A DNA stretch of 64,000 nucleotides. Origin: Olivibacter jilunii. GTDB lineage: Bacteria > Bacteroidota > Bacteroidia > Sphingobacteriales > Sphingobacteriaceae. The translations under genes and the position numbers were made by a program. Where the stretch lies: assembly GCF_900607235.1 (NCBI RefSeq), contig NZ_LR027856.1:62001-126000 (forward strand), written 5' to 3'. Shown here piece after piece: positions 15,090-34,973 of the stretch (its first letter is position 1; each line of letters begins with the position of its first letter). The notes beneath the pieces were generated by a model. The model ran no database searches and was not told where the DNA came from. It was given only the letters and a program-made list of their open reading frames with translations.

Positions 15090-18032
15090 TTATGCCGTCA
15101 CGGGATTATCCCTTATAGGCAGCTTGGCAAACCTTGTCACCTCGACGCTCGGAAATCCGAAATCAGCCACTATCTTTCCCTCGATCAGATAGCAGCCTTT
15201 CCCCCGGAATGGATATACAGGCGTATTGTTGGGAAAATGGGTGGTGTCAAAAAAATTGCCTTCCTCGTCCAGAAACGTGCCGAACCACATCTTTTTGTTG
15301 TTTTTGGTATGCACCGTTTTCTCGCATACATAATTCCCTACCATTTTAACGATCCTGCCTTCATGCCTGCCCAGGTCAGCGGCCATAATGTCGCCCCTGT
15401 ATGTTGTTTTTAGCAGGTCGAACATGGAAAGGCTTAAAGGGTATCCTAAAAGTTCCAGTTCCTGATAAGCGTTTTCCAACGGATCATCTGCGAGTTCGGG
15501 CATCTGATAAGTTTTAACAGGCAAGGAAAAGAGTTCCGAACCATTGCATGGTTTTGTCGAATGTCCAAGATAATCGTGTACGTCCCATAACAATGCCTTT
15601 TTTGTTTTTCCCGTAAAACGTAGGGCCCCCAAGCGGATCAGCAGAATACACTGTTCCAAAGTGATGCCGGTTCTGCGGATAAAATCTTCCAGACTCCTAT
15701 ACGGGCCGTTCTGTTTCCGTTCGTTGGGAATAAGCTGGATATAGATGTCCTGCAACCCCTGAACACCGATCAGGCCAAGATAAACATCCCTGCCTTTGAT
15801 GCCGACTTTTTCTTCACTGTGGTTTACGCAGGGAAGATGGACTATTGCCTCTGTCTTTTTCAGTTCATGTACATATAGCCACCTCTGGTAGAACCCACCG
15901 TAATTGTTCAGCACGGCAACCATGAACTCCATTGGATAAAAAGATTTCAGGAAAAGGCTCTGGTAGCTTTCCACTGCATAACTCGCAGAATGCGCCTTAC
16001 TAAAGCTGTAACCCGCAAAACTGCTCACCTGCCGCCAAACCTCTTTGGTAATATCTTCATCCCTTCCTATTTTCCCTGCTTCAAGAAAGAATTTTTCCAC
16101 CAACTTGTCAAACTCTACTTTCGAGCGGTATTTACCGCTCATGGCACGCCTTAACACATCCGCATCGGCCATGTCCAGCCCCGCATAATGATGGCAGACC
16201 TTGATCACGTCTTCCTGATAGACCATTACACCATAAGTTTCCCTTAACTGCTCCTGCATGACCGGATGCAGGTATTCCACTTTCTCCGGATGATGGAAAT
16301 AATAGATGTAGTTTTTCATCATGCCCGAAGAGGCGACCCCCGGACGGATAATGGAACTTGCTGCCACCAAAGTCAGGTAATCGGAACAGCAGAGTTTTTT
16401 GAGCAGTTGCCGCATGGCAGGGCTTTCGATATAAAAACAGCCGATGGTATCCCCCGATTTTAACTGTTGGTTCACCTTTCCGTTGACCAGGAATGAACGC
16501 ACATCATGGATGTCCACCTTTTCCTTTTTGTTTTGCAGGATCAGGTTTACCGCTTCTTTGATATGGCCGATCCCCCGTTGGGAAAGGATGTCCAGTTTGT
16601 CCAGTCCGATGGCTTCGGCCTCGTACATATCCCATTGTACGGTCGGCATACCTTTGGGCGGAAGATCCAATGCGGTGTAATAGGTTATGGGTTCTTCCGA
16701 TATGAGTACGCCCCCTGCATGGATACTCCGCTGGTTAGGCATATCCTTCATATACGTATAGATTGCCATAAGCTTATTAAAAACAGCATTATCCCTGTTC
16801 TGCGTATCCTGCGTGTTGTCGGTAAAGCTGTCTATCTCCGACTTGGCAAGTCCAAGCACTTTTCCTATTTCACGGATGATGGAACGGTCCCCGAAAGTAC
16901 TCATGGTTCCGAGAAGTGCCGTATGGTTCTTTCCGTAACGCTTAAAAATATAATCCTGTACGTCTTCCCGTTCGTCCCATGAATAATCGATGTCAAAATC
17001 CGGAGGGCTGCTTCTTTTGGGATTGAGAAAACGCTCAAAGTACAGGTCGAGCCGGATGGGATCAACGTCTGTAATACGGAGGCAATAGGCCACAGTACTG
17101 TTTGCCCCACTGCCACGGCCAACATGGTAATAGCCCCTGCTGGTGGAATAACGGATCATATCGTAGACGATCAGGAACGTAGCGGCGAAATCCAGATCAT
17201 CGATGACCTTGAGTTCATCCATAATCTTTTTTATCACCTTCTTATCACTGGCCCTGTAGCGATGCGCCATACCGTTCCATGTCAGTTTATGAAGCAGGGC
17301 CATATCGTCATGTTTGCTTCCCGTAAAGGTTTTTTTGTTCAGTTTTCCGAACACATAACCATCGGTACTGCAATCCGACAGCAAGGCTTTGGTATTGGCA
17401 ATGATATACGGGTGGTGATGGAACATTTTCCCGATGGCCGACGGAGATACAAAATGTTCATCAGGCAGGCATTTGTCACTGTTTTCTACCTTGCTCAGTA
17501 AGGTGTTCAGGTCAATGGCCCTTAGATATTCGTGCAGGCGGTACTGTACCTTGTCCGCTACGGTCGCAGGATGCAGGATCACCAGACTTTCTTTGATGCC
17601 TGACAGGTCTTTCCGTACAAGTTTTTGCAGTTCCGAATGACGGATGCCTATCCGTTCATAGTCGGCAAGCTGCTTTGGCGCGTTGGAAAAGGTATATACA
17701 ATATAAACATTCTTAAATACAGGCGCTCTTTCCGGTAATGCGGTTCCGTTCAGGTTATGTTCGGTAAGAAACTCGTTCAGTTCCCGCATGCCCTCTTTGT
17801 TTTTTGCAATGCCGATGTACAATAACCTATTGTCCTTTCGGTATTCCATGCCGATGATGGGACGTATCCCGCTCTTTCTACAGAGCCTGATAAAAGCCAT
17901 GCAGCCCGATGAATTATTAATATCGGTCAGCACCATTTCTGTAATGCCCAGTTTAACGGATGTTTCCACGATGTCTTCCAATGACATCGTGCCATAACGC
18001 AGGCTGTAATATGAATGGACATTGAGAAACAT
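15090..18032 (-). CDS. dnaE: DNA polymerase III alpha subunit, DnaE type (probable translesion polymerase)
   Basis: 980 residues. A PHP domain opens the protein (HSYYSLRYG, TDINN), with several canonical metal ligands changed, so proofreading or phosphatase function is doubtful. The C-family catalytic core is intact: GRGSGANS, PDFDIDYSW with Asp345/347/349, and the third Asp in GLDKLDIL. An HhH region and a C-terminal OB fold (GRIVKMVGNYVCEKT) follow. Start ATG 18032 is 4 bp after the dinB stop; longer frames into dinB lack homology. It is shorter than a replicative DnaE (~1160) and paired with a Y-family polymerase, as in DnaE2/ImuC mutasomes. Being on an ICE, it likely supports damage tolerance or synthesis during transfer (inference). 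Confidence 0.88.
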   Translation of the reverse strand: MFLNVHSYYSLRYGTMSLEDIVETSVKLGITEMVLTDINNSSGCMAFIRLCRKSGIRPIIGMEYRKDNRLLYIGIAKNKEGMRELNEFLTEHNLNGTALPERAPVFKNVYIVYTFSNAPKQLADYERIGIRHSELQKLVRKDLSGIKESLVILHPATVADKVQYRLHEYLRAIDLNTLLSKVENSDKCLPDEHFVSPSAIGKMFHHHPYIIANTKALLSDCSTDGYVFGKLNKKTFTGSKHDDMALLHKLTWNGMAHRYRASDKKVIKKIMDELKVIDDLDFAATFLIVYDMIRYSTSRGYYHVGRGSGANSTVAYCLRITDVDPIRLDLYFERFLNPKRSSPPDFDIDYSWDEREDVQDYIFKRYGKNHTALLGTMSTFGDRSIIREIGKVLGLAKSEIDSFTDNTQDTQNRDNAVFNKLMAIYTYMKDMPNQRSIHAGGVLISEEPITYYTALDLPPKGMPTVQWDMYEAEAIGLDKLDILSQRGIGHIKEAVNLILQNKKEKVDIHDVRSFLVNGKVNQQLKSGDTIGCFYIESPAMRQLLKKLCCSDYLTLVAASSIIRPGVASSGMMKNYIYYFHHPEKVEYLHPVMQEQLRETYGVMVYQEDVIKVCHHYAGLDMADADVLRRAMSGKYRSKVEFDKLVEKFFLEAGKIGRDEDITKEVWRQVSSFAGYSFSKAHSASYAVESYQSLFLKSFYPMEFMVAVLNNYGGFYQRWLYVHELKKTEAIVHLPCVNHSEEKVGIKGRDVYLGLIGVQGLQDIYIQLIPNERKQNGPYRSLEDFIRRTGITLEQCILLIRLGALRFTGKTKKALLWDVHDYLGHSTKPCNGSELFSLPVKTYQMPELADDPLENAYQELELLGYPLSLSMFDLLKTTYRGDIMAADLGRHEGRIVKMVGNYVCEKTVHTKNNKKMWFGTFLDEEGNFFDTTHFPNNTPVYPFRGKGCYLIEGKIVADFGFPSVEVTRFAKLPIRDNPVTA

Positions 18033-18036
18033 AACC

Positions 18037-19197
18037 TTAGTAATCTGTATCCAGGATCTGGGCAACCTTAATGGCATCCACGCCATAACGGTTGCGTATC
18101 TTGTCCATCTGCTGGTAAAGGTTATAAAGCTTTTCCCTGTTGCTGTAAAGTTCGATCTGCTCAAAACCACCGACAAGATGGGATAATTTTACGCCCACCA
18201 GGCGCAGGAGCATCCGGCGATCGTACAGTGCATCGAACAGTTCCCTTGCTTTTTGGATCAGCACACTGTCCAAAGAGGTATAAGGGATTCTTGCCTGTTT
18301 GCTTACCGTCTGAAAATCGGTATAACGAACGGTTACGGTTATACAGGCCGTTAACTTTTTCTTCTGCCGGAGTTCAAAGGCAAGATGATTGACCATTGCC
18401 AGCAGCAGGTTTTTAATGGAAGGGACATCCATTGTGTCGGCATCAAAGGTAGATTGTGTGCCAATGGATTTCTGTTCCCTATAGGGGACTATAGGAGTAT
18501 TGTCAATTCCGTGCGCCTTTTGCCAAAGGGAGATACCGTTTTTACCTAAAATCTTCACCATCCTTTCCTGTGGCACTTCTGTTAATTTTCCGATCTGCCG
18601 GATGCCCATTTCCGAAAGTTTGACGAAAGTGGATTCGCCAAGTCCGGGAATCTTTTTGATGGACAATGGATTTAAAAAAGGCCGTACAACCTTTTTTCCT
18701 ACCTGTTTTTCACCGTTGGGCTTACATTCATTGGTAGCCATTTTACTTACTGTCTTATTAACGGAAAGACCAAAAGAAATCGGCAGGTGCGTTTCCCTTA
18801 TGATCCTTTCCCTTAACTCATGGGCAAACTTCATGCAGCCAAAAAAACGTTCCATCCCGCTCATGTCGATGTAGTGCTCGTCAATGCTTGCCTTTTCAAG
18901 CAACGGTACCCTTTCTATGAGGATGTCAGTGATTTCATGGCTTGCCTTGCTATATTCATCCATACTTCCCCTAATGAATACGTCATGGGGACAAAGCTGT
19001 CTGGCCATGCGGGAGGGCATGGCCGAATGCACCCCGAACTTCCTTGCCTCATAACTGCAACTCGAAACCACACCACGGTCGGACGTACCCCCGATGATGA
19101 CAGGAAGGCCCTTTAATTTGGGGTTTTTCCTTACTTCAACGGCCACAAAGAAAGCATCCTGATCCATGTGGATGATGCTGCGCTCTCCTTCTACCAT
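18037..19197 (-). CDS. dinB: Y-family DNA polymerase IV
   Basis: 386 residues. The palm carries MDQDAFF (Asp12) and the catalytic SIDEHYID (Asp106, Glu107); finger residues CSYEARKFGV, an HhH pair (KIPGLGE...) at ~185-215 and the little-finger domain (~245-360) are all present. It performs error-prone lesion bypass. No beta-clamp-binding tail is obvious; the C-terminus ends IAQILDTDY. It is co-transcribed with dnaE downstream. No imuA, lexA or umuD gene lies next to it, so this is a two-gene version of the ImuABC arrangement, and no LexA box could be identified upstream. Confidence 0.92.
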   Translation of the reverse strand: MVEGERSIIHMDQDAFFVAVEVRKNPKLKGLPVIIGGTSDRGVVSSCSYEARKFGVHSAMPSRMARQLCPHDVFIRGSMDEYSKASHEITDILIERVPLLEKASIDEHYIDMSGMERFFGCMKFAHELRERIIRETHLPISFGLSVNKTVSKMATNECKPNGEKQVGKKVVRPFLNPLSIKKIPGLGESTFVKLSEMGIRQIGKLTEVPQERMVKILGKNGISLWQKAHGIDNTPIVPYREQKSIGTQSTFDADTMDVPSIKNLLLAMVNHLAFELRQKKKLTACITVTVRYTDFQTVSKQARIPYTSLDSVLIQKARELFDALYDRRMLLRLVGVKLSHLVGGFEQIELYSNREKLYNLYQQMDKIRNRYGVDAIKVAQILDTDY

Positions 19198-19313
19198 ACC
19201 TTAAACACATTAGATTAGAATACAAATTTAAGCTAAGAATTTTAGTAAAAACAAGAAATTACTAAAATATTTAACAAAATCCCTTTTAAAAGCACTGCTA
19301 AGCCCTAAAAAAC

Positions 19314-19376
19314 ATTCACGTTTCCAAACGCTACTTTCACGTGGCGAAAACCGCCTTTCAAGTCAGTTTAGTTTTT
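19314..19376 (+). promoter_or_regulatory. Three direct repeats with 21-bp period, putative LytTR-binding array
   Basis: The heptamers TTCACGT (19315), TTCACGT (19336) and TTCAAGT (19357) start exactly 21 bp apart. LytTR-domain regulators such as AgrA and ComE bind direct repeats about two helical turns apart, and a LytTR regulator is encoded 2.6 kb downstream in the same operon. The array lies 118-180 bp before the peptide start. The rest of 19198-19493 has no gene; a T8 run follows the third repeat. Confidence 0.5.
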
Positions 19377-19493: not shown

Positions 19494-19625
19494 ATGAAAC
19501 CGATTTTTAAAGCGAAATCAAGAATACGCAAGATACTGGGTAAGCCTATTGGCCTGATGGCAATGGAAGCACTTTTATTGGCTGCCACAATGGATGACAA
19601 GTGTATACCTTACGAAGGATTTTAG
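19494..19625 (+). CDS. 43-residue putative signal or modified peptide
   Basis: ATG 19494 opens a 43-codon frame. The product has a strongly basic N-terminus (MKPIFKAKSRIRKILGKPIG), a Leu/Ala-rich middle (MEALLLAAT) and an acidic then aromatic tail with a single cysteine (MDDKCIPYEGF). Its last 32 bp overlap the start of the acyltransferase gene, so the two are translationally coupled. The layout peptide, modifying enzyme, histidine kinase, LytTR regulator is that of peptide quorum-sensing or regulated bacteriocin loci. No family recognised, and no transporter or protease gene is beside it. Confidence 0.55.
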   Translation: MKPIFKAKSRIRKILGKPIGLMAMEALLLAATMDDKCIPYEGF

Positions 19626-20808
19626 CAAAGGAGAAAATTCCGATTTCTTTTATCTGCCCGGTAGTGAGCTACCGGGCCTAATTCCAAAATATATGAACAC
19701 AGCTGATCTTACAGAAGGTCTGGAGAAAGGGTTTTTCTTTCTGAACACCCCGTTATGGTTCAAGTACCAGATGGTAAGCGCAAGTTTCAGGAACTTTTTG
19801 CCTGAACTGGATTATAGGCAGCATCGCCGCCTGTTTGATCTTTTAATGCGGAACCAGCAGCTTGCCCACCAGGAACAGAAGCCAAGCGCCCTAAAAGGTG
19901 AGGTAATGTTAAACTTTTCCGGAAAATATACACTGGAAGATCTAAGGGAACGACCAGGAATAATAGCCACGTTCCATAGCGGCTCTTTCCGCCTGATAGG
20001 CCATTTGTTTGTGAAAGAGAAAGTCCCATTTTCCCTGTTGGTCGCGGGCGACGGGCTTGAGAAGGAAGATCAAATGGTCAGTGAGCAATACGGAAAGGAG
20101 AATCTTAAAAGCTTCGGCTTCGACCTGATCAATGCAAATAGGGAGAATGCGCTGCTGAAAATGTGCCGTGAACTAAGGGCCGGAAAAAACATACTGGTTT
20201 ACCTTGACGGAAATACAGGCGCAAATGGACATTCCGAAAACCGGAACCTGATCCTTTTAAGGTTCCTCTATCAACGGATCAGGGTACGGGCAGGTGCCGC
20301 CTATGCAGCTTATTTAACTGAAGCCCCGATCTATCCGGTAATTTCAACAAGACGCTGGAAATACCGGCCCCGCCTTGATTTTTTTCCACCTGTCATACCC
20401 GATAGATCAACCGATCGGGCAACTTTCGTAGAGATGGCACTGAAACGGCTGTACGGATATCTTGAAGATACCGTAAAAGAAAAACCGTGGCAATGGAACG
20501 GATGGCTGCATTTGCACAGACATGCCGAAATAATCAATCCGGTACCGGAACAGATAAGAATAAAATCCATGCCCAAAGGGACAAAGGGAAGATATGTTAT
20601 GTTCAATGAAAGGGATTATGCCATTTTTAGTACAGATGACCTTTATTTTCTGCTCCGTAAAAAGGATTATGCCTGTTTTGAAATAAAAAATTGGAGATAC
20701 CATCATATTTATAACGTGTATATGGGAAATTCACGCTTAACAGTTCCGATGGCCCGGCGCAACAATATGGAAGATCTTCTGGATAACGGTGTTTTAATTG
20801 AGAAATAA
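19594..20808 (+). CDS. LpxL-like (lysophospholipid) acyltransferase family protein
   Basis: 404 residues. The central part matches the LpxL/HtrB acyltransferase fold: RPGIIATFHSGSFRLIGHLF (~120-139), a LVYLDGNTGANG loop (~207-218) and RAGAAYAAYLTEAPIYPVIS (~231-250). In LpxL the active site is HxxxxD/E; here His128 is kept but the acidic position is Arg133, so chemistry may differ. About 90 C-terminal residues are extra and look like a small beta-rich domain. There is no N-terminal membrane helix. Its start lies inside the 43-residue peptide gene and its stop is 11 bp before the kinase gene. Acylation of the peptide, or of a lipid, is the leading idea but unproven. Confidence 0.7.
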   Translation: MTSVYLTKDFSKGENSDFFYLPGSELPGLIPKYMNTADLTEGLEKGFFFLNTPLWFKYQMVSASFRNFLPELDYRQHRRLFDLLMRNQQLAHQEQKPSALKGEVMLNFSGKYTLEDLRERPGIIATFHSGSFRLIGHLFVKEKVPFSLLVAGDGLEKEDQMVSEQYGKENLKSFGFDLINANRENALLKMCRELRAGKNILVYLDGNTGANGHSENRNLILLRFLYQRIRVRAGAAYAAYLTEAPIYPVISTRRWKYRPRLDFFPPVIPDRSTDRATFVEMALKRLYGYLEDTVKEKPWQWNGWLHLHRHAEIINPVPEQIRIKSMPKGTKGRYVMFNERDYAIFSTDDLYFLLRKKDYACFEIKNWRYHHIYNVYMGNSRLTVPMARRNNMEDLLDNGVLIEK

Positions 20809-20818
20809 AGGTAATACT

Positions 20819-21976
20819 ATGGGAAGTTTAGTATATTTGTGTGAAAAAAGTCTTTTTCGTTGTGAGAAATGGCTTAGCTCGTTAATAATAGAGGAAGAAC
20901 CATCAAGTCCCCGGTGTATGGTCACTTTTTTGCGAAAACATCCAGCTATTCTTCATCTGTTAATATGGGTAGTATATATCCATATCACCTACGTGTATAA
21001 CGGCCCCAAGATATCAAATGTTGTGTATATCCATATTATCGGGCTTTGCGTACTTTATGCAGGTACGTTTTACTCAAATTTCTTTCTCTTCCGGTTTCTG
21101 AGAGAAAAAAAGTGTAACTGGTGGCAGACCATAGGCTCAGTGATCCTGTTGTTCATGCTGGTTGCCTATACGGTTTATTATATTGTATATTTTGTTTTTC
21201 CATTCTTTGGTATCAAACTGTATTATGAAGGTGTACCTTTTAATATCTGGCTGTATCTGCGTAATGTCTCATCCATGTATATCAAATATACCAGCTATGC
21301 ACTGGTTTACTATTTTGTCATGAGGGTGTTTCAGGAAGTGCAGTTCAGGAGGAGAATGGAACTTACGCACTTTGAGACAGAAAGAGAAAAATTCCTGTAT
21401 GAACAGGCTTTTTTAAGGGCCCAGATAAATCCCCATTTTTTGCATAATACACTGAATTTTATCTATACACAGGCGCTTAGCTTTTCTGAATCTCTTGCCA
21501 AAATTATCTACCAGCTCTCGCTGATGATGCGTTATTCAGTAGACAGCGCTTCGGAGGGCAGCCAATTGGTGCCACTGCATAAGGAACTGGAATACTTGGA
21601 GATATACCTGAAAATCAATAATGCCCGTTTTGGAAAGGGAAAACATATAAGTTATAAGTTCGAAGGAGATCCTTACCTGCACCACATCCCGCCCCTTTTA
21701 TTTATCACACTGGTCGAGAACGGTTATAAACACGGGGATCTTTCCGATCCCACTAGGCCCATGCAGATCAGGATCGTGTCAGACCGTGATAAAATCTATT
21801 TCTACAGTTCAAACAAAAGAAGGACTGAAGCGGCAGTGAACAGTTCCGGCAGCCAGATAGGTTTAAAGAACCTGAAAAGAAGGCTCATAGGAGCCTTCGG
21901 AGAGGAAAAGGTCAAGCTTACACATACCATAAAGGATGAATTTTACACCGTAGAGCTATTGGTCGATCTTTCTTAG
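20819..21976 (+). CDS. LytS/YehU-type sensor histidine kinase
   Basis: 385 residues with four transmembrane helices (about 43-60, 70-93, 103-128, 152-170), then a His_kinase domain with AQINPHFLHNTLN (phospho-acceptor His ~206) and an ATP-binding part (VPLHKELEYLEIYL, LVENGYKHG). There is no separate extracellular sensor domain, so a ligand would be sensed in the membrane, as with AgrC-type receptors. ATG 20819 is chosen over TTG 20798. It is in line with the LytTR gene, 21 bp downstream. Confidence 0.88.
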   Translation: MGSLVYLCEKSLFRCEKWLSSLIIEEEPSSPRCMVTFLRKHPAILHLLIWVVYIHITYVYNGPKISNVVYIHIIGLCVLYAGTFYSNFFLFRFLREKKCNWWQTIGSVILLFMLVAYTVYYIVYFVFPFFGIKLYYEGVPFNIWLYLRNVSSMYIKYTSYALVYYFVMRVFQEVQFRRRMELTHFETEREKFLYEQAFLRAQINPHFLHNTLNFIYTQALSFSESLAKIIYQLSLMMRYSVDSASEGSQLVPLHKELEYLEIYLKINNARFGKGKHISYKFEGDPYLHHIPPLLFITLVENGYKHGDLSDPTRPMQIRIVSDRDKIYFYSSNKRRTEAAVNSSGSQIGLKNLKRRLIGAFGEEKVKLTHTIKDEFYTVELLVDLS

Positions 21977-21997
21977 CTCGAAATATTCAGAGACAAT

Positions 21998-22705
21998 ATG
22001 ATCAACTGCATCGCCATAGATGATGAACCTGCCGCTTTGGGACAGATAGCCCGTTACCTTCAAAAAATACCGGATGTACGGTTGATAGGATCGACTACCA
22101 GACCAAAAGATGGACTGAAGATGGCGCAGGAAATGTCGGTCGATGCCCTTTTTCTTGATATGGAAATGGACGAAATGACCGGCACCGAGGTGATGCGCAG
22201 GCTTGACCCTACGATAAAGGTAGTGGTGTGTACCGCTTATTCAGAATATTCCATCCAGAGCTTCGAACTGGACGCAGTGGATTATCTGCTGAAGCCTGTA
22301 GAATTTGACCGTTTTGCAAAGGCGGTGGAACGCTTAAAAGAGCGGATCTTAAAGAAAACTTTAGCACTTCCGGTCGTTAAAAATGATTACATCTTCGTCA
22401 AGTTTATGCAGAGGGGAAGCCTGAAGAAAATCGATTTCTCCGACATCATCTATGTGGAGGCAAGGGACCACGATGTGGTCTTTCACAAGCACAATGAATT
22501 TGTGATTGCCTACATGGGCATGAACGAAGTGGAATCGAAACTTAGGCCATCAGATGGTTTTCTCCGGATCAACCGTTCCTATATCGTTTCCGTAAAAATG
22601 ATCGACATGATAAGCGAAGGTATGGTCAAACTTAAAAGCAAAAAAGAACTTCCTTTAGGTGGAAAATATAAAGAGTATGTCCTGAATATTTTAGACCCAC
22701 GTTAA
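21998..22705 (+). CDS. LytTR-family response regulator
   Basis: 235 residues: a receiver domain (~1-120) with the acidic pair DDE at 8-10, phospho-acceptor Asp54 (FLDMEMDEMTG), and Lys in LLKPVEF; then a LytTR DNA-binding domain (~130-232) with DIIYVEARDHDVVFH and FLRINRSYIVS. It is the cognate partner of the preceding kinase. The 21-bp-spaced repeats ahead of the peptide gene are its most likely target, which would make the operon auto-inducing. Confidence 0.9.
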   Translation: MINCIAIDDEPAALGQIARYLQKIPDVRLIGSTTRPKDGLKMAQEMSVDALFLDMEMDEMTGTEVMRRLDPTIKVVVCTAYSEYSIQSFELDAVDYLLKPVEFDRFAKAVERLKERILKKTLALPVVKNDYIFVKFMQRGSLKKIDFSDIIYVEARDHDVVFHKHNEFVIAYMGMNEVESKLRPSDGFLRINRSYIVSVKMIDMISEGMVKLKSKKELPLGGKYKEYVLNILDPR

Positions 22706-22723: not shown

Positions 22724-23917
22724 ATGTATGCCAGATCAAACGAAATTGTTTGGCCCGACGATCTATTGGGCCTGATTGACTCCTTTTTGTCTTTAGGGAG
22801 AGAAGATTTCGTCTCGCTGAAACAAAAGGTTAAAAGGAATTTTTTGGATCTGGAAGACGTTATTTATGAAATGGCGCTCCGGGATCCTTTGAGCAAATGC
22901 ACGCTGGTAAGTAAATACCAGGTCAATGTTACCGAACTGTTAGAGACAGTATGGTCGGGTCTTCAAAAAGAAAAAAAGTCAAGGGATCTGAAAGATACGG
23001 GCAATTACAGGGTAGCAGTTTATTACTATACACTCAACAGGGGCATCATCTTTTTGGAAAGGCTGTACCAATTTTATCCCGATCAATTTCAGGATGCACG
23101 GCCTCTTTGCTCCTTCATCCCTTTCCTTAGGCAGAAGACTTACTTAAACCGGTTTTTCCTGTTGATGGAAACCTTAAAGGAAAACCGTGTTGACAGGCTC
23201 CTGATCATTACTTTGGAAAATTATTTCTTAGGCTTTCTGGACAGTACGGTCATAAGCTATTTCAAATGGCAGCATTGGTTCTATGCTTTCCGTCTGGTAA
23301 GTGAGCTTCCGGCACGGCTCATCCATCTAAAGCATTCACAACGTTACGAACAGGAATTGATTGAACAGCTTGTTACCCATAATTTCAATTTCAGTCCTTT
23401 CTATCATTTCCTTACGGGCAAAATGCAAAAATCTATCGATGGCCTTGAAGAAGATGCAGGAAAAGAGGACCAGTGGATCAGTTATCTTAATATGTTCAGC
23501 GCCATCCCTATGATGAGGAAACTTGCAGCGGACAGCGACATACCATCCATCAAACATGAAATCATAAAATACATCAAAATAAAAAAAAGAGAATATTCCA
23601 AAATACGCAAATTATGGTTCAGGTTTCCTTTGGGGGTAATTGATCCGAAAACGGGACGGTATCATTTCAAAGTTGCCTTTACTGTCCCTCAGCTCCTTTT
23701 CTTTTTCCGTGTCCTGATGGAAACAGAAATGCTTTTTGTGCAGACAAAGAAAAAACTTTTCCACTTTATCAATGATTTTATCGGAACGGATAAAGCGGGT
23801 ATTATCTCGCTCCGGAGCCTGCACAGCAAAAACACCCTTCCTTCCCAAAAAACCATCAATAAGGTAAGGGAATGCCTCTTGGAAATAATAGACTATATTA
23901 ATTCCAAATACCAATAA
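22724..23917 (+). CDS. Hypothetical ICE protein in the control operon
   Basis: 397 residues, mostly helical, no signal peptide or membrane segment, no confident family. The last ~80 residues (FTVPQLLFFFRVLMET... through KVRECLLEIIDYINSKY) resemble C-terminal helical modules found in RteC and other Bacteroidota accessory proteins. It follows the LytTR gene by 18 bp, so it belongs to the same transcript, and it ends exactly where the opposing small gene ends (23917/23918). A role relaying the two-component signal to element transfer is a guess from position. Confidence 0.6.
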   Translation: MYARSNEIVWPDDLLGLIDSFLSLGREDFVSLKQKVKRNFLDLEDVIYEMALRDPLSKCTLVSKYQVNVTELLETVWSGLQKEKKSRDLKDTGNYRVAVYYYTLNRGIIFLERLYQFYPDQFQDARPLCSFIPFLRQKTYLNRFFLLMETLKENRVDRLLIITLENYFLGFLDSTVISYFKWQHWFYAFRLVSELPARLIHLKHSQRYEQELIEQLVTHNFNFSPFYHFLTGKMQKSIDGLEEDAGKEDQWISYLNMFSAIPMMRKLAADSDIPSIKHEIIKYIKIKKREYSKIRKLWFRFPLGVIDPKTGRYHFKVAFTVPQLLFFFRVLMETEMLFVQTKKKLFHFINDFIGTDKAGIISLRSLHSKNTLPSQKTINKVRECLLEIIDYINSKYQ

Positions 23918-24531: not shown

Positions 24532-24678
24532 CACCCGTTTATTAATTTTTTGCATATCTGATTGCTTTTAAAGCAATAAAATCCCTGGATTAACCTACTA
24601 AATCCCAATTTGCCACCTTTGCCACTTTATTTCATCCGAAAATTTTAAGGTCTTTGTGAAGAACCAAAAGTTTTGCGT

Positions 24679-25539
24679 ATGAAAACGATACTAGATTATT
24701 CCGACATGCTTTTTCGGGAACTTTCGGATGAAATGGCAATCACCGAACAGGAAGAATTGACTGCAAGGCAGGAAACCGCAAAGAAATTGCTGATTGCCCG
24801 TTCTTATCTCCAAAAATTAAAGGAGCATATAGTAGGGAATGCATTTGAAAACCAGCAGGAGGAAATCACCTTTTTTAAGTACAAAAAGCCACTCTTTGTC
24901 AGTCAGGTACTTTACTTTGCCGAAAGGCAAAGAATAAACCTTATCAGGCCGGAAGGGACTGCCGAACAGCTTAACAGGTATTACCGTTATCTGCTCGAAG
25001 GGATTGAAAAATTTTACACAGACAACCGTGAACTTTACAGTTATTACCGATCCGGTTACGGCCATCTTGACCATCTGTTGTTCCTGCGTTCTGTTCCAGA
25101 ACCACCTTCATGGCTCTGTGCGGTTGACAGGGCGGATTATGACGAACGTTTTTCCGTACCTGCCGATAACCTGATTGGAAAAATCATCTGCAATGAATAT
25201 CTGGTTAGATATCTCGGCCAGCTTTTGGAAGGAAAAACGGAAGAGGTAGGCGTATCTGCTTCCCCTGAAATGACATGGACAGGAGAAAGCATCAACCTGC
25301 TTGAAACAGCTTATGGATGGTACTGTACAGGCCAGATAAACAATGGTCAGGCCGGAATAGGCGAAATTGTCCGCAAGCTGGAAACCGTATTCAATGTGAA
25401 GATCGGGCGCCCTTACAGAAGGTTCGCCGAGATCAAACAGCGCAAACGCTTAAGCCGAACTAAGTTTATAGATGATATGGGAAAAGCCATCGTCCAAAAA
25501 TTGGATGATGAGGACGCCTACAGACCTGAACGGCGATAA
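24679..25539 (+). CDS. rteC: RteC-family ICE regulatory protein
   Basis: 286 residues from ATG 24679. The C-terminal third carries the RteC pattern: LLETAYGWYCTGQINNG, IVRKLETVFNVKIGRPYRRFAEIKQRKRLSRTKFIDDMGKAIVQKLD. In CTnDOT, RteC activates the xis/exc genes and thus excision. The genes that normally control rteC (rteA/rteB, a two-component pair with an NtrC-type regulator) are absent here; a LytS/LytTR pair lies just upstream instead. An 11-bp hairpin terminator follows 33 bp after the stop. Confidence 0.8.
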   Translation: MKTILDYSDMLFRELSDEMAITEQEELTARQETAKKLLIARSYLQKLKEHIVGNAFENQQEEITFFKYKKPLFVSQVLYFAERQRINLIRPEGTAEQLNRYYRYLLEGIEKFYTDNRELYSYYRSGYGHLDHLLFLRSVPEPPSWLCAVDRADYDERFSVPADNLIGKIICNEYLVRYLGQLLEGKTEEVGVSASPEMTWTGESINLLETAYGWYCTGQINNGQAGIGEIVRKLETVFNVKIGRPYRRFAEIKQRKRLSRTKFIDDMGKAIVQKLDDEDAYRPERR

Positions 25540-29241: not shown

Positions 29242-31698
29242 ATGATAGCCGAAGCGACCAATATATTTCCCATTTATAAGGTGGAGCGTGACTGTATCCT
29301 AAGTAAACAGGGAGATATCACAGTGGCCTATGAACTTGTACTTCCCGAAATATTTACACTTTCGGACAGAGACTACACCGCCTATCACCAGACTTTTGTG
29401 AAAGCGGTCAGGGTCTTGCAGAACCACACTGTTCTGCATAAGCAAGATTGGTTTTTACAGGACAGTTATAAGGCGGATTACGAAGGAAAAGAAGGCTTTC
29501 TTGCACGTTCCAGTGAACATTTCTTCAACGAACGGCCCTTTATGTCCCACTCCTGTTATCTCTTCCTCACCAAAAAACCAGATGGCCGCAGACCGGCAAC
29601 ATCTGCCTATACAAACCTGCTTCGCAGTACCATTGTACCAATACAGACCATAAATGAAACCATTTTTAAGAATTTTATGGACAGTGCCGGACAGTTTGAA
29701 CGGATCCTGCAAGACAGTGGCTTTATAAGTATTAAAAGACTTGGTACGGAGGAACTGGCAGGGACTGCTACAAAGGCAGGGATCATTGAACGTTACTGTT
29801 TTCTGCTATCCGGAAATGAAGCCCCGCTTATCAGGGACATCAATCTTGAAAACGGACTGGAGATTGGCGGTAAATACGCAAGTCTTTACACGCTTAGTGA
29901 TACTGAAAACCTTCCAGCTTTATGCGGTAGCCGTATAAATTATGATAAATATTCAACAGACCGAACCAAGTTCAGTATAGGTTTTGCAAGTCCGTTGGGC
30001 CAGCTTCTCGACTGTGACCATATCTATAACCAATACATCCTGATTGGTGATGCCCAACAGACCATTAAAGAACTGGAGGCAAAAAAACTCCGGTTGCAGT
30101 CCCTTTCCAATTACAGCCGGGAAAACGCTGTAGCGATGGGTGCGGTAAATGATTTTCTTAACGAAGCTGTTTCCGAGCAGCGGCTTCCGCTAAAAGCGCA
30201 TTTCAATGTCCTTGCATGGTCGGACAGGAAAGAAGACCGTGAACTGAAAAACAAGGTTATTTCTTCCTTTGCCCAGATGGACTGCACGGCCAAGCAGGAA
30301 ACGGATGGAATGGCGCAGATATGGTACGCCGGAATGCCCGGTGCGGGTGCGGATTTTCCCGTTAATGATACCTTTGATACGTTCTGCGAGCAGGCTGTAT
30401 GTTTTTTCAATCTGGAAACAAACTACCGCGACAGCATTAGCCCATTCGGCATCCGGCTAGGTGACCGCCTTACAGGCCGTCCCGTATTTTCGGACATAAG
30501 TGATGAGCCACAACGCAGGGGATGGATTGCCAACCGCTCGAAATTCATCTGCGGGCCCAGTGGCAGCGGAAAATCTTTTTTCACCAACCATCTGGTAAGG
30601 AGCTACTACGAACAGGGCGCCCACATCATGATCGTAGATATCGGCCACAGTTATAAAGGATTATGTGATCTGGTCGGTGGCTATTATTTTACCTATAAAG
30701 AAGAAGATCCGATCCGGTTCAATCCTTTCTATCTCCCTGAAGGTGGCCGTCCGGATACCGAAAAGAAGGAGAGCATTAAAACCCTGCTCCTTACTTTATG
30801 GAAAAAGGAAAGTGAACCTTACAGGCGTTCAGAGTATGTTGCCATATCCAATGCATTGACACTGTATTACGATTATCTGGCCAATAATACCGACATCTTT
30901 CCCTGTTTCGACTCTTTTTATGAGTTTCTGCTTTCCGAATATACAGAGGTACTGAAACAGACGCAGGTAAAGGAGAAAGATTTTGATCTGGGAAGTTTCC
31001 TTTATGTACTGAATCCTTACTATAAAGGGGGTGAATTTGACTATCTCCTGAACGCGCATGAGAACCTCGATATATTAAACCAACGGTTCATAGTGCTAGA
31101 ACTGGACAATTTGAAGGAGCATCCCGTCCTCTTTGGTGTGGTCACGCTTACGATTATGGAAATGATCGTTTCCAAAATGCGGAAGATCCCGCATATCCGT
31201 AAAGTGGTACTGGTGGAGGAAGCATGGAAAGCGATCGCTAAGGAAAACATGGCCGAGCATATCCGGTATCTCTGGAAGACCATGCGAAAGTTCTATGGCG
31301 AGCCAATTGTGGTTACACAGGAAGTCGAGGATGTGATTTCTTCACCGATTGTCAAGAACGCGATTATCAACAATAGTGATACCAAGATCCTGCTTGACCA
31401 ATCCAAATACCAGAACAGATTTGACGACATACAGGACCTGCTTGGCCTCAACGACAAAGAAAAGGCTTTGGTTCTAAGCCTGAACAGGGCCAATGATCCA
31501 AAAAGGAAATACAAGGAAGTCTTTATCAGTCTGGGAGGGCACAGCAAGGTTTACCGTACAGAAGTGTCACTTAGGGAATACCTAACCTACACTACGGAAG
31601 CCAGTGAAAAAGCCAAAGTCCAGGAATACGCCATGCGCTACGGCAGCATGCAGAAAGGAATTGACATGCTTGCAAAGGAAATGGAAGGCACAGGATAA
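29242..31698 (+). CDS. traG: Conjugative transfer ATPase TraG (VirB4 family)
   Basis: 818 residues. It carries Walker A GPSGSGKS (438-445), Walker B KVVLVEEAWKAI (~655) and the downstream FYGEPIVVTQEVEDVI segment, all typical of VirB4/TraC-type secretion ATPases; the N-terminal half is the CagE/TrbE-like domain. It powers assembly and substrate passage through the type IV secretion channel at the inner membrane. Length and motifs are complete. Confidence 0.93.
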   Translation: MIAEATNIFPIYKVERDCILSKQGDITVAYELVLPEIFTLSDRDYTAYHQTFVKAVRVLQNHTVLHKQDWFLQDSYKADYEGKEGFLARSSEHFFNERPFMSHSCYLFLTKKPDGRRPATSAYTNLLRSTIVPIQTINETIFKNFMDSAGQFERILQDSGFISIKRLGTEELAGTATKAGIIERYCFLLSGNEAPLIRDINLENGLEIGGKYASLYTLSDTENLPALCGSRINYDKYSTDRTKFSIGFASPLGQLLDCDHIYNQYILIGDAQQTIKELEAKKLRLQSLSNYSRENAVAMGAVNDFLNEAVSEQRLPLKAHFNVLAWSDRKEDRELKNKVISSFAQMDCTAKQETDGMAQIWYAGMPGAGADFPVNDTFDTFCEQAVCFFNLETNYRDSISPFGIRLGDRLTGRPVFSDISDEPQRRGWIANRSKFICGPSGSGKSFFTNHLVRSYYEQGAHIMIVDIGHSYKGLCDLVGGYYFTYKEEDPIRFNPFYLPEGGRPDTEKKESIKTLLLTLWKKESEPYRRSEYVAISNALTLYYDYLANNTDIFPCFDSFYEFLLSEYTEVLKQTQVKEKDFDLGSFLYVLNPYYKGGEFDYLLNAHENLDILNQRFIVLELDNLKEHPVLFGVVTLTIMEMIVSKMRKIPHIRKVVLVEEAWKAIAKENMAEHIRYLWKTMRKFYGEPIVVTQEVEDVISSPIVKNAIINNSDTKILLDQSKYQNRFDDIQDLLGLNDKEKALVLSLNRANDPKRKYKEVFISLGGHSKVYRTEVSLREYLTYTTEASEKAKVQEYAMRYGSMQKGIDMLAKEMEGTG

Positions 31699-33113: not shown

Positions 33114-33750
33114 AAAGCTCATCCTACTGATGGCCTGCATCCCGTTGCTGATATCGCCCTTTCGTGGTGCGGCCCAATCCACGGAAATCCAGCAACTGAT
33201 CCTGAACGCTGAAAAACTTAGCCAGTTCAAAAGTATCCTCAATCAGATGAAGGCCGGTTATGACATTATCAGTTACGGCTATAATGCGATAAAGGACATT
33301 TCCGAAGGAAACTTCTCGCTTCATTCCGTCTTCATTGGCGGGCTGATGATCGTCAGTCCCGAAGTAAAGAAATATGGCCGTATTGCCGATATCGTTTCAG
33401 CACAGGTCAAGATCAATGCTGAATACCGTTCGGCACTGTCCCGCTTCCAAAGTTCGGGGATATTCAATCCCGGTGAGCTAAAATATATGGGCAGGGTGTA
33501 TGGAAAATTGCTGGATCAGGCGAAAGATAATCTGGACGACCTGCTTATGGTCATAACCGATGCCCAGTTAAGGATGAGTGATGAAGAACGCCTTGCCCAG
33601 ATCGATCGTATATATGCCGATATGCAGGACAAAATTGTTTTTCTAAGGAAATTCAATGAATCGGGAAGTGTTCTTGCAGCGCAGCGGAACAGGGAATTAA
33701 AGGATATAATAGGTGTCGGACAATTTTTTAAGAAAGGGAATGACTTATGA
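33097..33750 (+). CDS. TraI-like periplasmic transfer protein, third paralogue
   Basis: 217 residues with a signal peptide (cleaved near RGAAQ), the ISEGNFSLHSVFIGGL motif and LDDLLMVITDAQLRMSDEERL. It overlaps the preceding gene by 17 bp and traJ by 4 bp, so the whole block is tightly coupled. Probable periplasmic, helical channel-associated protein. Three TraI-like genes in a row suggest a hetero-oligomer. Confidence 0.75.
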   Translation: MKQIIKKLILLMACIPLLISPFRGAAQSTEIQQLILNAEKLSQFKSILNQMKAGYDIISYGYNAIKDISEGNFSLHSVFIGGLMIVSPEVKKYGRIADIVSAQVKINAEYRSALSRFQSSGIFNPGELKYMGRVYGKLLDQAKDNLDDLLMVITDAQLRMSDEERLAQIDRIYADMQDKIVFLRKFNESGSVLAAQRNRELKDIIGVGQFFKKGNDL

Positions 33751-34973
33751 AAACTATAATCGCTGCCTGCCTGTTGTCCGTTTTCGCCATGCTGGTGCCA
33801 CAGGCCAGCCATGCGGACATTACCCAGACCCTAGGCGGTATGCAGCCTGTACTGGACAGCGTGCGCAACGAGATGCAGCCGCTAAGCGGAAAACTCATCG
33901 ACGTTGGCCGTGCCATAGCGGGCTTTGGCGCCCTCATCTATATAGCCAGCCGTGTTTGGCGCCAACTTGCCGCCGCCGAGCCTATAGATTTTTATCCGTT
34001 GCTCCGGCCTTTCGGTCTTGGCCTAGCCATTATGTTCTTCCCTGCCGTGATCGATCTGATGAACGGGGTTTTGCAGCCGACCGTCTCTGCCACGGCTGGA
34101 ATGGTTGAGGGAAGTAACAATGCCATTGAAGCACTTCTCAAGCAGAAAGAAGAAGCCGTAAAGAATTCAGACCTCTACAACATCTACGTTGGAGAAGATG
34201 GAAATGGAAATCGTTCCGAATGGTATAAGTATACACATCCCGAAGAATCCGGCAAAAGTAGTGAAGGTGGCTTATGGGAAGGTATCGGCAATGATATCAG
34301 GTTCTGGATGGACAAGCAGAGTTACAATTTCCGCAATTCCATCAAACAATGGATGAGCGAAGTGCTACAGGTCATTTTTGCCGCTGCTTCGCTCTGCATC
34401 AATACTATCCGTACATTCTACCTGATCGTACTGTCCATAATCGGCCCGATCGTGCTTGGCCTTTCGGTCATTGACGGTTTCCAGCAATCCCTTATCCAAT
34501 GGATGGCAAGGTATATCAATGTCTTCCTTTGGCTGCCCGTTTCAAATATCTTCGGGAGTATCTTGGGCAAGATACAGGAGAACATGCTCAAGATAGACAT
34601 CAGTCAGATCGGGCAGTCCGGTGATACATTTTTCAGTACCTATGATACCGCTTATCTCATCTTTATGCTAATTGGGATTTGCGGCTATTTTACCGTCCCG
34701 AATGTAGCGAATTATATTGTACAGGCAGGTGGGGCCAATGCCCTGTTGCAAAAGGTAACAAGTATCGTATCTACTTCGACTATGGCAGCCGGAGGCGTAA
34801 TGAGTGCCGGTGCCGGAAGAGCCGCTCAGGGAGCTTCCAACATTCTACAGGCGGGAAAACATTTCAACGAAGGTTATTCGGGAGAAAAGGAAGGTGCAGG
34901 CGGACATGGTGCCGTGGGCAGGGCTATGGGACATGCGGGCGGCTATCTTCATGACAGGCTTTCGGGCAACTAA
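33747..34973 (+). CDS. traJ: Conjugative transfer protein TraJ
   Basis: 408 residues. A signal peptide (ending SHAD) is followed by several hydrophobic segments (around 50-65, 90-110, 205-245, 305-325) and a Gly/Ala-rich, His-containing C-terminal tail (~345-408). This is the VirB6-like polytopic protein of the channel (CtnDOT_TraJ family). Features such as VWRQLAAAEPIDFYPLLRPF and FLWLPVSNIFGSIL are typical. It starts in the ATGA overlap with the gene before. Confidence 0.9.
   Translation: MKTIIAACLLSVFAMLVPQASHADITQTLGGMQPVLDSVRNEMQPLSGKLIDVGRAIAGFGALIYIASRVWRQLAAAEPIDFYPLLRPFGLGLAIMFFPAVIDLMNGVLQPTVSATAGMVEGSNNAIEALLKQKEEAVKNSDLYNIYVGEDGNGNRSEWYKYTHPEESGKSSEGGLWEGIGNDIRFWMDKQSYNFRNSIKQWMSEVLQVIFAAASLCINTIRTFYLIVLSIIGPIVLGLSVIDGFQQSLIQWMARYINVFLWLPVSNIFGSILGKIQENMLKIDISQIGQSGDTFFSTYDTAYLIFMLIGICGYFTVPNVANYIVQAGGANALLQKVTSIVSTSTMAAGGVMSAGAGRAAQGASNILQAGKHFNEGYSGEKEGAGGHGAVGRAMGHAGGYLHDRLSGN

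Follow-up and report, generated by a model that had tools for sequence, protein, structure and literature searches.

A probable agr-like peptide-signalling operon with an LpxL/PatA-like acyltransferase on a conjugative element of Olivibacter jilunii

The window analysed here, a stretch of 64,000 nucleotides from Olivibacter jilunii (contig NZ_LR027856.1, positions 62,001 to 126,000), contains a compact operon on its forward strand. Three promoter repeats are followed by a gene for a short Cys-tailed peptide, a hairpin, an acyltransferase gene, a LytS-type histidine kinase gene, a LytTR response regulator gene and an unnamed fifth gene (Table 1). An initial annotation of this DNA had described the four genes from peptide to regulator, with three repeats of 21-bp spacing upstream, as a signalling module, and all of these elements were found in place. 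We consider it likely that the locus is an agr-like operon for peptide signalling that regulates its own expression, and that a peptide acyltransferase of a new kind acylates its Cys-tailed peptide.

Table 1. Features of the operon and its surroundings in the window
Feature	Position	Strand	Remarks
Three 10-bp direct repeats	19312..19363	+	ACATTCACGT at 19312, ACTTTCACGT at 19333, CCTTTCAAGT at 19354; 21 bp apart; probable LytTR sites in the operon's own promoter
43-aa precursor peptide	19494..19625	+	tail K-C-IPYEGF (frame ends MDDKCIPYEGF); Cys37 at 19602-19604
Perfect 9-bp GC-rich hairpin, attenuator-like	19656..19677	+	between peptide stop and acyltransferase start
LpxL/PatA-like acyltransferase, distinct family	19693..20808	+	listed reading frame 19594-20808
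Membrane histidine kinase, LytS type, PF06580	20819..21976	+	listed reading frame from TTG 20798; in-frame ATG 20819
Response regulator with LytTR DNA-binding domain	21998..22705	+	Pfam matches
Fifth gene, 397 aa, unnamed family	22724..23917	+	same family in 28/80 relatives
RteC, mobile-element regulator	24673..25539	+	context
TraG conjugation ATPase	29242..31698	+	context
TraJ	33747-34973		context
DinB/Pol IV-type polymerase	18037..19197	-	divergent neighbour, context

Matches to the enzyme in genomes sampled from the window's own bacterial family numbered 126, comprising a first set of 80 loci, a later set of 45, mostly more divergent, and the window itself. One first-set locus (L156) lies too near a contig end, which leaves 79 in which a preceding peptide could be sought as an open reading frame (ORF) with an ATG start, a length of 30-75 amino acids, its last Cys 3-9 residues from the end, and a stop codon no more than 230 bp upstream or 5 bp downstream of where the enzyme match begins. 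Such an ORF precedes the enzyme in 65/79 loci, against 10/79 on the antisense strand, 9.6 in shuffles and 58/768 at other positions. The later set was tested with a lower bound of 330 bp in place of 230 bp. This test therefore differs from the first, and several accepted peptides lie beyond 230 bp; the count there is 37/45 against 5 antisense. The ratio of nonsynonymous to synonymous variation (pN/pS) is 0.09-0.43 in all 10 groups of close relatives tested, indicating that the amino acids of the peptide, and not merely its DNA, have been kept by purifying selection. A frame unconserved or broken in homologues was the outcome that the initial annotation had named as speaking against its proposal; what was found is a recurrent peptide under selection.

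The tails across these loci include KCIPYEGL, KCDFVIL, KCPFEIF, KCNIVFPF and RCPIFTI, as well as PCDEFIL, CDVILPGLDLL, KCWPSSF and KCNLYYI. Among 70 curated peptides, the Cys stands five residues from the C-terminus in 38 and six in 15 (16 after correction of one wrong-frame entry, L178), and it is preceded by Lys in 43 (44 after the same correction). These 70 rows, which also underlie the hairpin, in-frame ATG and tail-correlation results below, include L178; loci that lacked a kinase row or had a short enzyme row are not among them. Seven peptides that did not pass the strict filter, six having their Cys at a greater distance from the end and one starting at a codon other than ATG, had been added by hand; L167, one of the seven, was later removed. 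The Cys tail emphasised by the initial annotation is thus recurrent, whereas the basic N-terminus that it also described is not a general trait, with many relatives acidic or hydrophobic. The N-terminal parts differ widely, and a conserved leader with a variable core is not evident across the loci with a two-component system. No known family in Pfam or NCBIfam matched among the peptides scanned, namely the window peptide, four relatives and others. A group of loci, L245-L249, combines enzyme and closely similar peptides with no kinase or regulator matches, possibly as orphan signals or inhibitors; L248 and L249 are copies within the same genome, separated by about 12 kb.

Directly 3' of the peptide stop, a stable fold (z < -2, dinucleotide shuffles) is present in 59/70 loci, compared with 0/70 at the peptide start and 5/70 inside the enzyme gene; in the window, the 78 nt after the stop give a z of -2.4. 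We read the hairpin as a putative attenuator that would favour the peptide. The same region bears on the start of the enzyme. The enzyme-family profile match in the window (locus L001) starts 67 nt after the peptide stop, an in-frame ATG at or after the stop (4 nt slack) is present in 67/70 loci with a median gap of 62 nt, and the hairpin, whose counterpart recurs in relatives, would fall within an enzyme frame extended to 19594. Since all three favour a later start, ATG 19693 is likelier than ATG 19594, and the 32-bp overlap of peptide and enzyme genes that had been reported, which holds only for the earlier codon, is probably a start-codon artefact. Across genomes of this bacterial family, a Cys-tailed peptide before the enzyme is found in most loci, as the initial annotation had anticipated; overlap of the two frames as a conserved feature was rejected in view of the in-frame ATGs after the stop and the hairpin in the gap.

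The enzyme had been called LpxL-like. The window protein scores just under the threshold against PF03279 (Lip_A_acyltrans; 22.1 bits, cut-off 22.3), and of three relatives one reaches 23.9, one 14.3 and one has no match. The closest solved sequences to the enzyme profile are those of PatA, a phosphatidylinositol mannoside acyltransferase (5oce, 5f2t, 7ojt; E 7e-4). Residues invariant in 95/95 rows are H128 and D205, both numbered from the 19594 ORF, along with W301. HX4D/E is the catalytic motif of LpxL/LpxM-type acyltransferases, and the family departs from a canonical LpxL in that the acid is gone in 93/95 rows: position +5 is Arg in 59, as in the window, Glu in 2 and Asp in 0. The HSGNWD of PatA aligns with the family's HTGSYR, in a segment scoring below zero bits. 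Loss of the acid would suit a Cys acceptor, because a thiol should need less activation than a hydroxyl. Three changes account for the kinase-linked label on a tree of these 95 rows, compared with 17.6 in shuffles.

The kinase matches PF06580 (His_kinase) with 75.6 bits at a cut-off of 25.2, and the regulator matches Response_reg with 65.6 bits and LytTR with 60.3 bits (cut-off 22.6). When the first set was searched with the window's single sequences, same-strand downstream matches were found for the kinase in 67/80 loci and for the regulator in 73/80, with both in 64 and either in 76. In the later set, where the kinase search used a profile derived from the first set, each was found in 39/45, and the arrangement in line noted by the initial annotation therefore recurs widely. 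The phospho-acceptor column is His in 76/78 kinase rows, the remaining two being incomplete.

A spacing of 21 bp is the usual layout of LytTR sites. In the DNA preceding the peptide genes, 30 de-duplicated clusters give scores of 7.57 at lag 21 and 7.33 at lag 20, against 6.28 ± 0.19 for other lags; inside the enzyme gene, as a control, lag 21 scores 6.07. The later set, which was not de-duplicated, gives 7.70 for lag 21 against 6.28 ± 0.23. Furthermore, a similar triplet, its third repeat weak, is located 163-187 bp ahead of the peptide start in four other mobile-element-type copies.

Similarity of the peptide tails was compared with that of the proteins over distant pairs of the 70 loci. Tail similarity correlates with the membrane part of the kinase, given the enzyme and the kinase domain (partial r 0.159, reached in 0/500 permutations), and with the enzyme (0.297, 0/500), and shows no correlation with the kinase domain (0.006, 218/500). 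This pattern, unchanged when L178 is corrected or dropped, is as would be expected of a ligand with its receptor and its maker.

Relatives of the enzyme are also associated with genes for modified ribosomal peptides (RiPPs), both in a second bacterial family and in the window's own. A single-sequence search of 20 loci from the second family, including one from a third, found a same-strand downstream kinase or regulator match in none; one of the 20 has a kinase-regulator pair on the opposite strand. A peptide of the form MKx(0-3)FxI lies directly before the enzyme in 32/42 distinct loci (40/51 rows minus nine same-place repeats; 41 of the 73 second-family matches and one other locus). These peptides all contain a Cys, well inside the peptide, and show a conserved leader, MKK.F.IK, a variable core and a pN/pS of 0.24.

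Ten of the 42 loci lack this peptide, and other genes were recognised beside the enzyme in those of the ten that were scanned. L209 combines a ketoacyl synthase, a FabA-like dehydratase and a lantibiotic dehydratase (PF04738, 94.7 bits, cut-off 28) with the enzyme, and L211 has a lantibiotic dehydratase (63.9 bits) together with ketoacyl-synthase-like ORFs recognised by eye alone. Such a run of ketoacyl synthase, FabA-like protein, enzyme and lantibiotic dehydratase is a possible lipidated lanthipeptide pathway. One ketoacyl synthase is found at L213, and two at L208. By eye, L210, L212 and L214 resemble L209 in their ORF pattern. In one cluster, L215 unites Cys-rich small peptides, a daptide-type protease (85, cut-off 300), the enzyme, and the grasp-with-spasm maturases of ATP-grasp (221, cut-off 230) and SPASM (150.5, cut-off 175) type. 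Within the first family, L136 adjoins a daptide/epipeptide-type protease (91 bits, cut-off 300), and an Olivibacter locus, L128 (L018 is the same place), holds a Cys peptide, the enzyme, an ATP-grasp maturase (170 at L018, cut-off 230), the kinase and the regulator together. As the protease and maturase scores lie under the curated cut-offs, they support kinship and not exact function. Arginase-family genes occur at L026 (the place of L216) and L065 (the place of L197).

Taken as a whole, these comparisons of sequences make a strong case for a precursor peptide with a dedicated enzyme and an autoregulated two-component system, for which a secreted, acylated signal would be the best explanation. 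The short ORF would encode a RiPP precursor with the Cys-containing tail as its working part. The LpxL/PatA-like enzyme would transfer a fatty acyl group, most likely to the invariant Cys, and the product would arrive at the cell surface through a pathway that the operon itself does not encode. There, the LytS-type kinase may recognise it with its multi-helix membrane part, and the phosphorylated LytTR regulator would bind the repeats before the peptide gene, providing positive feedback and driving the fifth gene, with the hairpin after the peptide stop keeping the peptide in excess over the enzyme. Carried on a mobile element, such a system could allow donor cells to sense each other before or during transfer.

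The same peptide signal might be made by other chemistry, with the enzyme closing a ring between the Cys thiol and the C-terminal carboxyl, or forming some other acyl linkage, in place of attaching a fatty chain. The five- or six-residue distance of the Cys from the C-terminus (38/70 and 15/70) is like the spacing of thiolactone signals, and the acid of HX4D/E is gone. Joining a free carboxyl would, however, require ATP, of whose use the fold family gives no sign; the second-family precursors with their internal Cys do not suit a ring of this kind, and the ketoacyl-synthase genes beside some enzyme relatives point to donors of the acyl-acyl carrier protein type, so that we regard the ring as unlikely. 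We also think it improbable that the peptide is an antimicrobial or inhibitory RiPP, with the two-component system as its regulator or self-protection switch and not as a signal receptor. Enzyme relatives do adjoin lantibiotic-dehydratase and grasp-with-spasm genes, and L245-L249 have peptide and enzyme without the kinase and regulator, but no immunity or export family is frequent among the neighbouring proteins scanned (70 of 78 upstream and 96 of 114 downstream; Colicin_V 5/96). Moreover, the tail co-varies with the membrane part of the kinase, and peptide, kinase, regulator and repeats stay together over very diverged loci.

The weak matches to Lip_A_acyltrans (22.1 bits) and the mannoside acyltransferase (E 7e-4) could instead indicate an envelope-lipid enzyme that alters lipid A or another lipid, the kinase then sensing the state of the envelope and the small ORF being a regulatory upstream frame. 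Selection on the ORF at the level of amino acids, its conserved tail, the peptide-maturation genes beside enzyme relatives and the lost HX4D/E acid all speak against this, and we hold it to be very improbable.

Several observations weigh against an acylated peptide signal as the product of the operon. Seven of the 79 first-set loci have no recognisable peptide even by eye (L129 and L190, with an incomplete gene in both; L136, which has no kinase; and L143, L158, L159 and L196), as have 8/45 later loci by the filter. Of the accepted ORFs, L178 among the 65 is in the wrong frame (the Cys peptide of that locus starts at a non-ATG codon), and L254 in the later set looks spurious. Kinase and regulator matches are absent from 6/45 later loci, and the hairpin reaches z -2 in only 25/37 of the later loci with a peptide. 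Over all pairs the correlation between tail and kinase membrane part is weaker (0.088, 4/500; 0.084-0.088 and 5-7/500 with L178 corrected or dropped), the permutations ignore shared ancestry, and an earlier run on 7 rows, with an NPHF motif required, showed nothing. No gene for an exporter or leader peptidase was recognised in the operon, and an enzyme family without the HX4D/E acid may not follow the usual mechanism of acyl transfer. Finally, a second repeat pair with the promoter half-site was found nowhere else in the 64 kb, leaving a direct effect on the transfer genes unsupported.

In its plan the operon is like agr, which also has a short precursor with a Cys near its end, a modifying enzyme, a membrane kinase, a LytTR regulator and spaced promoter repeats. 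It differs in that the enzyme is an acyltransferase-family protein, the kinase matches PF06580, most peptides of these loci stop 5-6 residues beyond the Cys and have no follower, and the host belongs to the Bacteroidota. AgrB had no match among 10 window proteins scanned, including the products of the five operon genes, and AgrD no family match for the window peptide or four relatives. Judged by these searches, the operon would work like agr and is not a member of it. LytTR-type two-component systems that serve peptide signalling are known mainly in Gram-positive bacteria, and the literature searches made turned up no such system in Bacteroidota among the papers listed; nor did they, with their incomplete coverage of many subscription papers, find a description of the operon.

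Selidamides and nostolysamides are fatty-acylated RiPPs made by GNAT-type acyltransferases. The system described here would share with them a ribosomal peptide acylated by a dedicated enzyme, and differs in its LpxL/PatA-like enzyme and its two-component system; the nostolysamides are reported to be acylated on Lys. PatA itself differs from the operon enzyme, whose family is without the acid of HX4D and whose substrate is most likely a peptide. In the RiPP-lipoprotein hybrids of Bacteroidota (PMC12636315), a lipid is placed on a Cys of a ribosomal peptide by the general lipoprotein pathway, whereas here a dedicated enzyme is encoded beside the precursor. A kinase-regulator pair occurs in one Bacteroidales cluster (PMC10352776), and the word acyltransferase is absent from the available portion of that text.

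Enzyme relatives (E <= 1e-15) are present in 64/301 genomes sampled from the window's own bacterial family and in 65/200 from the second. A class-wide sample yielded 6/395 genomes at E <= 1e-50, with the next best match at 2e-17, and a phylum-wide sample 7/395 at 1e-15. Among named genomes, seven loci were found in Olivibacter sp. XZL3, bacterium A37T11 and four Parapedobacter species (one twice); an earlier named-genome scan using the four closest sequences had given no loci. The window's genome contains five members of the enzyme family, of which three are of the window's type (tails CIPYEGF and, twice, CIPYEGL) and two have the tails CEYWDL and CPFEIF. Five copies with differing tails in one genome suggest parallel channels. 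In genome G002, one enzyme copy is in two pieces about 75 kb apart (L129 and L130), each adjoining a transposase-like ORF.

The fifth gene matched nothing in Pfam or NCBIfam up to E 1. Its family has a conserved C-terminal stretch, LSYESLRKKYS, and as a rule lies downstream of the regulator. Kinship with RteC, to which it looks alike by eye, was rejected at an hhalign probability of 0.2. True RteC genes lie inside or adjoining the module copies L149, L181, L187, L189 and L194, and further downstream in two element-type copies, L118 and L129. RteC is otherwise known from conjugative elements. With RteC, TraG and TraJ genes on the same element, the location of the operon on a CTnDOT-type conjugative element is well supported, in agreement with the integrative and conjugative element that the initial annotation had proposed; PLSDB gave no match to plasmid copies. 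Adjoining DnaE-type and DinB-type polymerase genes on the mobile element (window 15090-19197) form a translesion-synthesis cassette. Among the scanned neighbours of the module, AraC-type (HTH_18; 20/70) and cyclic-nucleotide-binding regulators (13/70) are the commonest upstream, and HTH_17 is the commonest Pfam match downstream (19/96).

A broader reading, which we hold tentatively and would put somewhat short of even, is that these loci represent a new RiPP class of Gram-negative Bacteroidota. LpxL/PatA-like enzymes would have turned into peptide acyltransferases acting on a Cys thiol, and would serve both lipopeptide signalling with LytS-LytTR receptors, in a large, diversified family with several private channels per cell and one on conjugative elements, and lipidated lanthipeptide- and graspetide-like clusters. 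As it stands, the system offers a specific candidate in which precursors, enzyme, receptors and promoters are predicted for about a hundred loci, so that cognate pairs are open to direct testing. Should the enzyme prove to acylate peptides, it would constitute a new catalytic family for lipopeptides, and its lanthipeptide-linked relatives would be worth mining. The copy on the conjugative element would tie gene transfer in Bacteroidota to cell-cell signalling.

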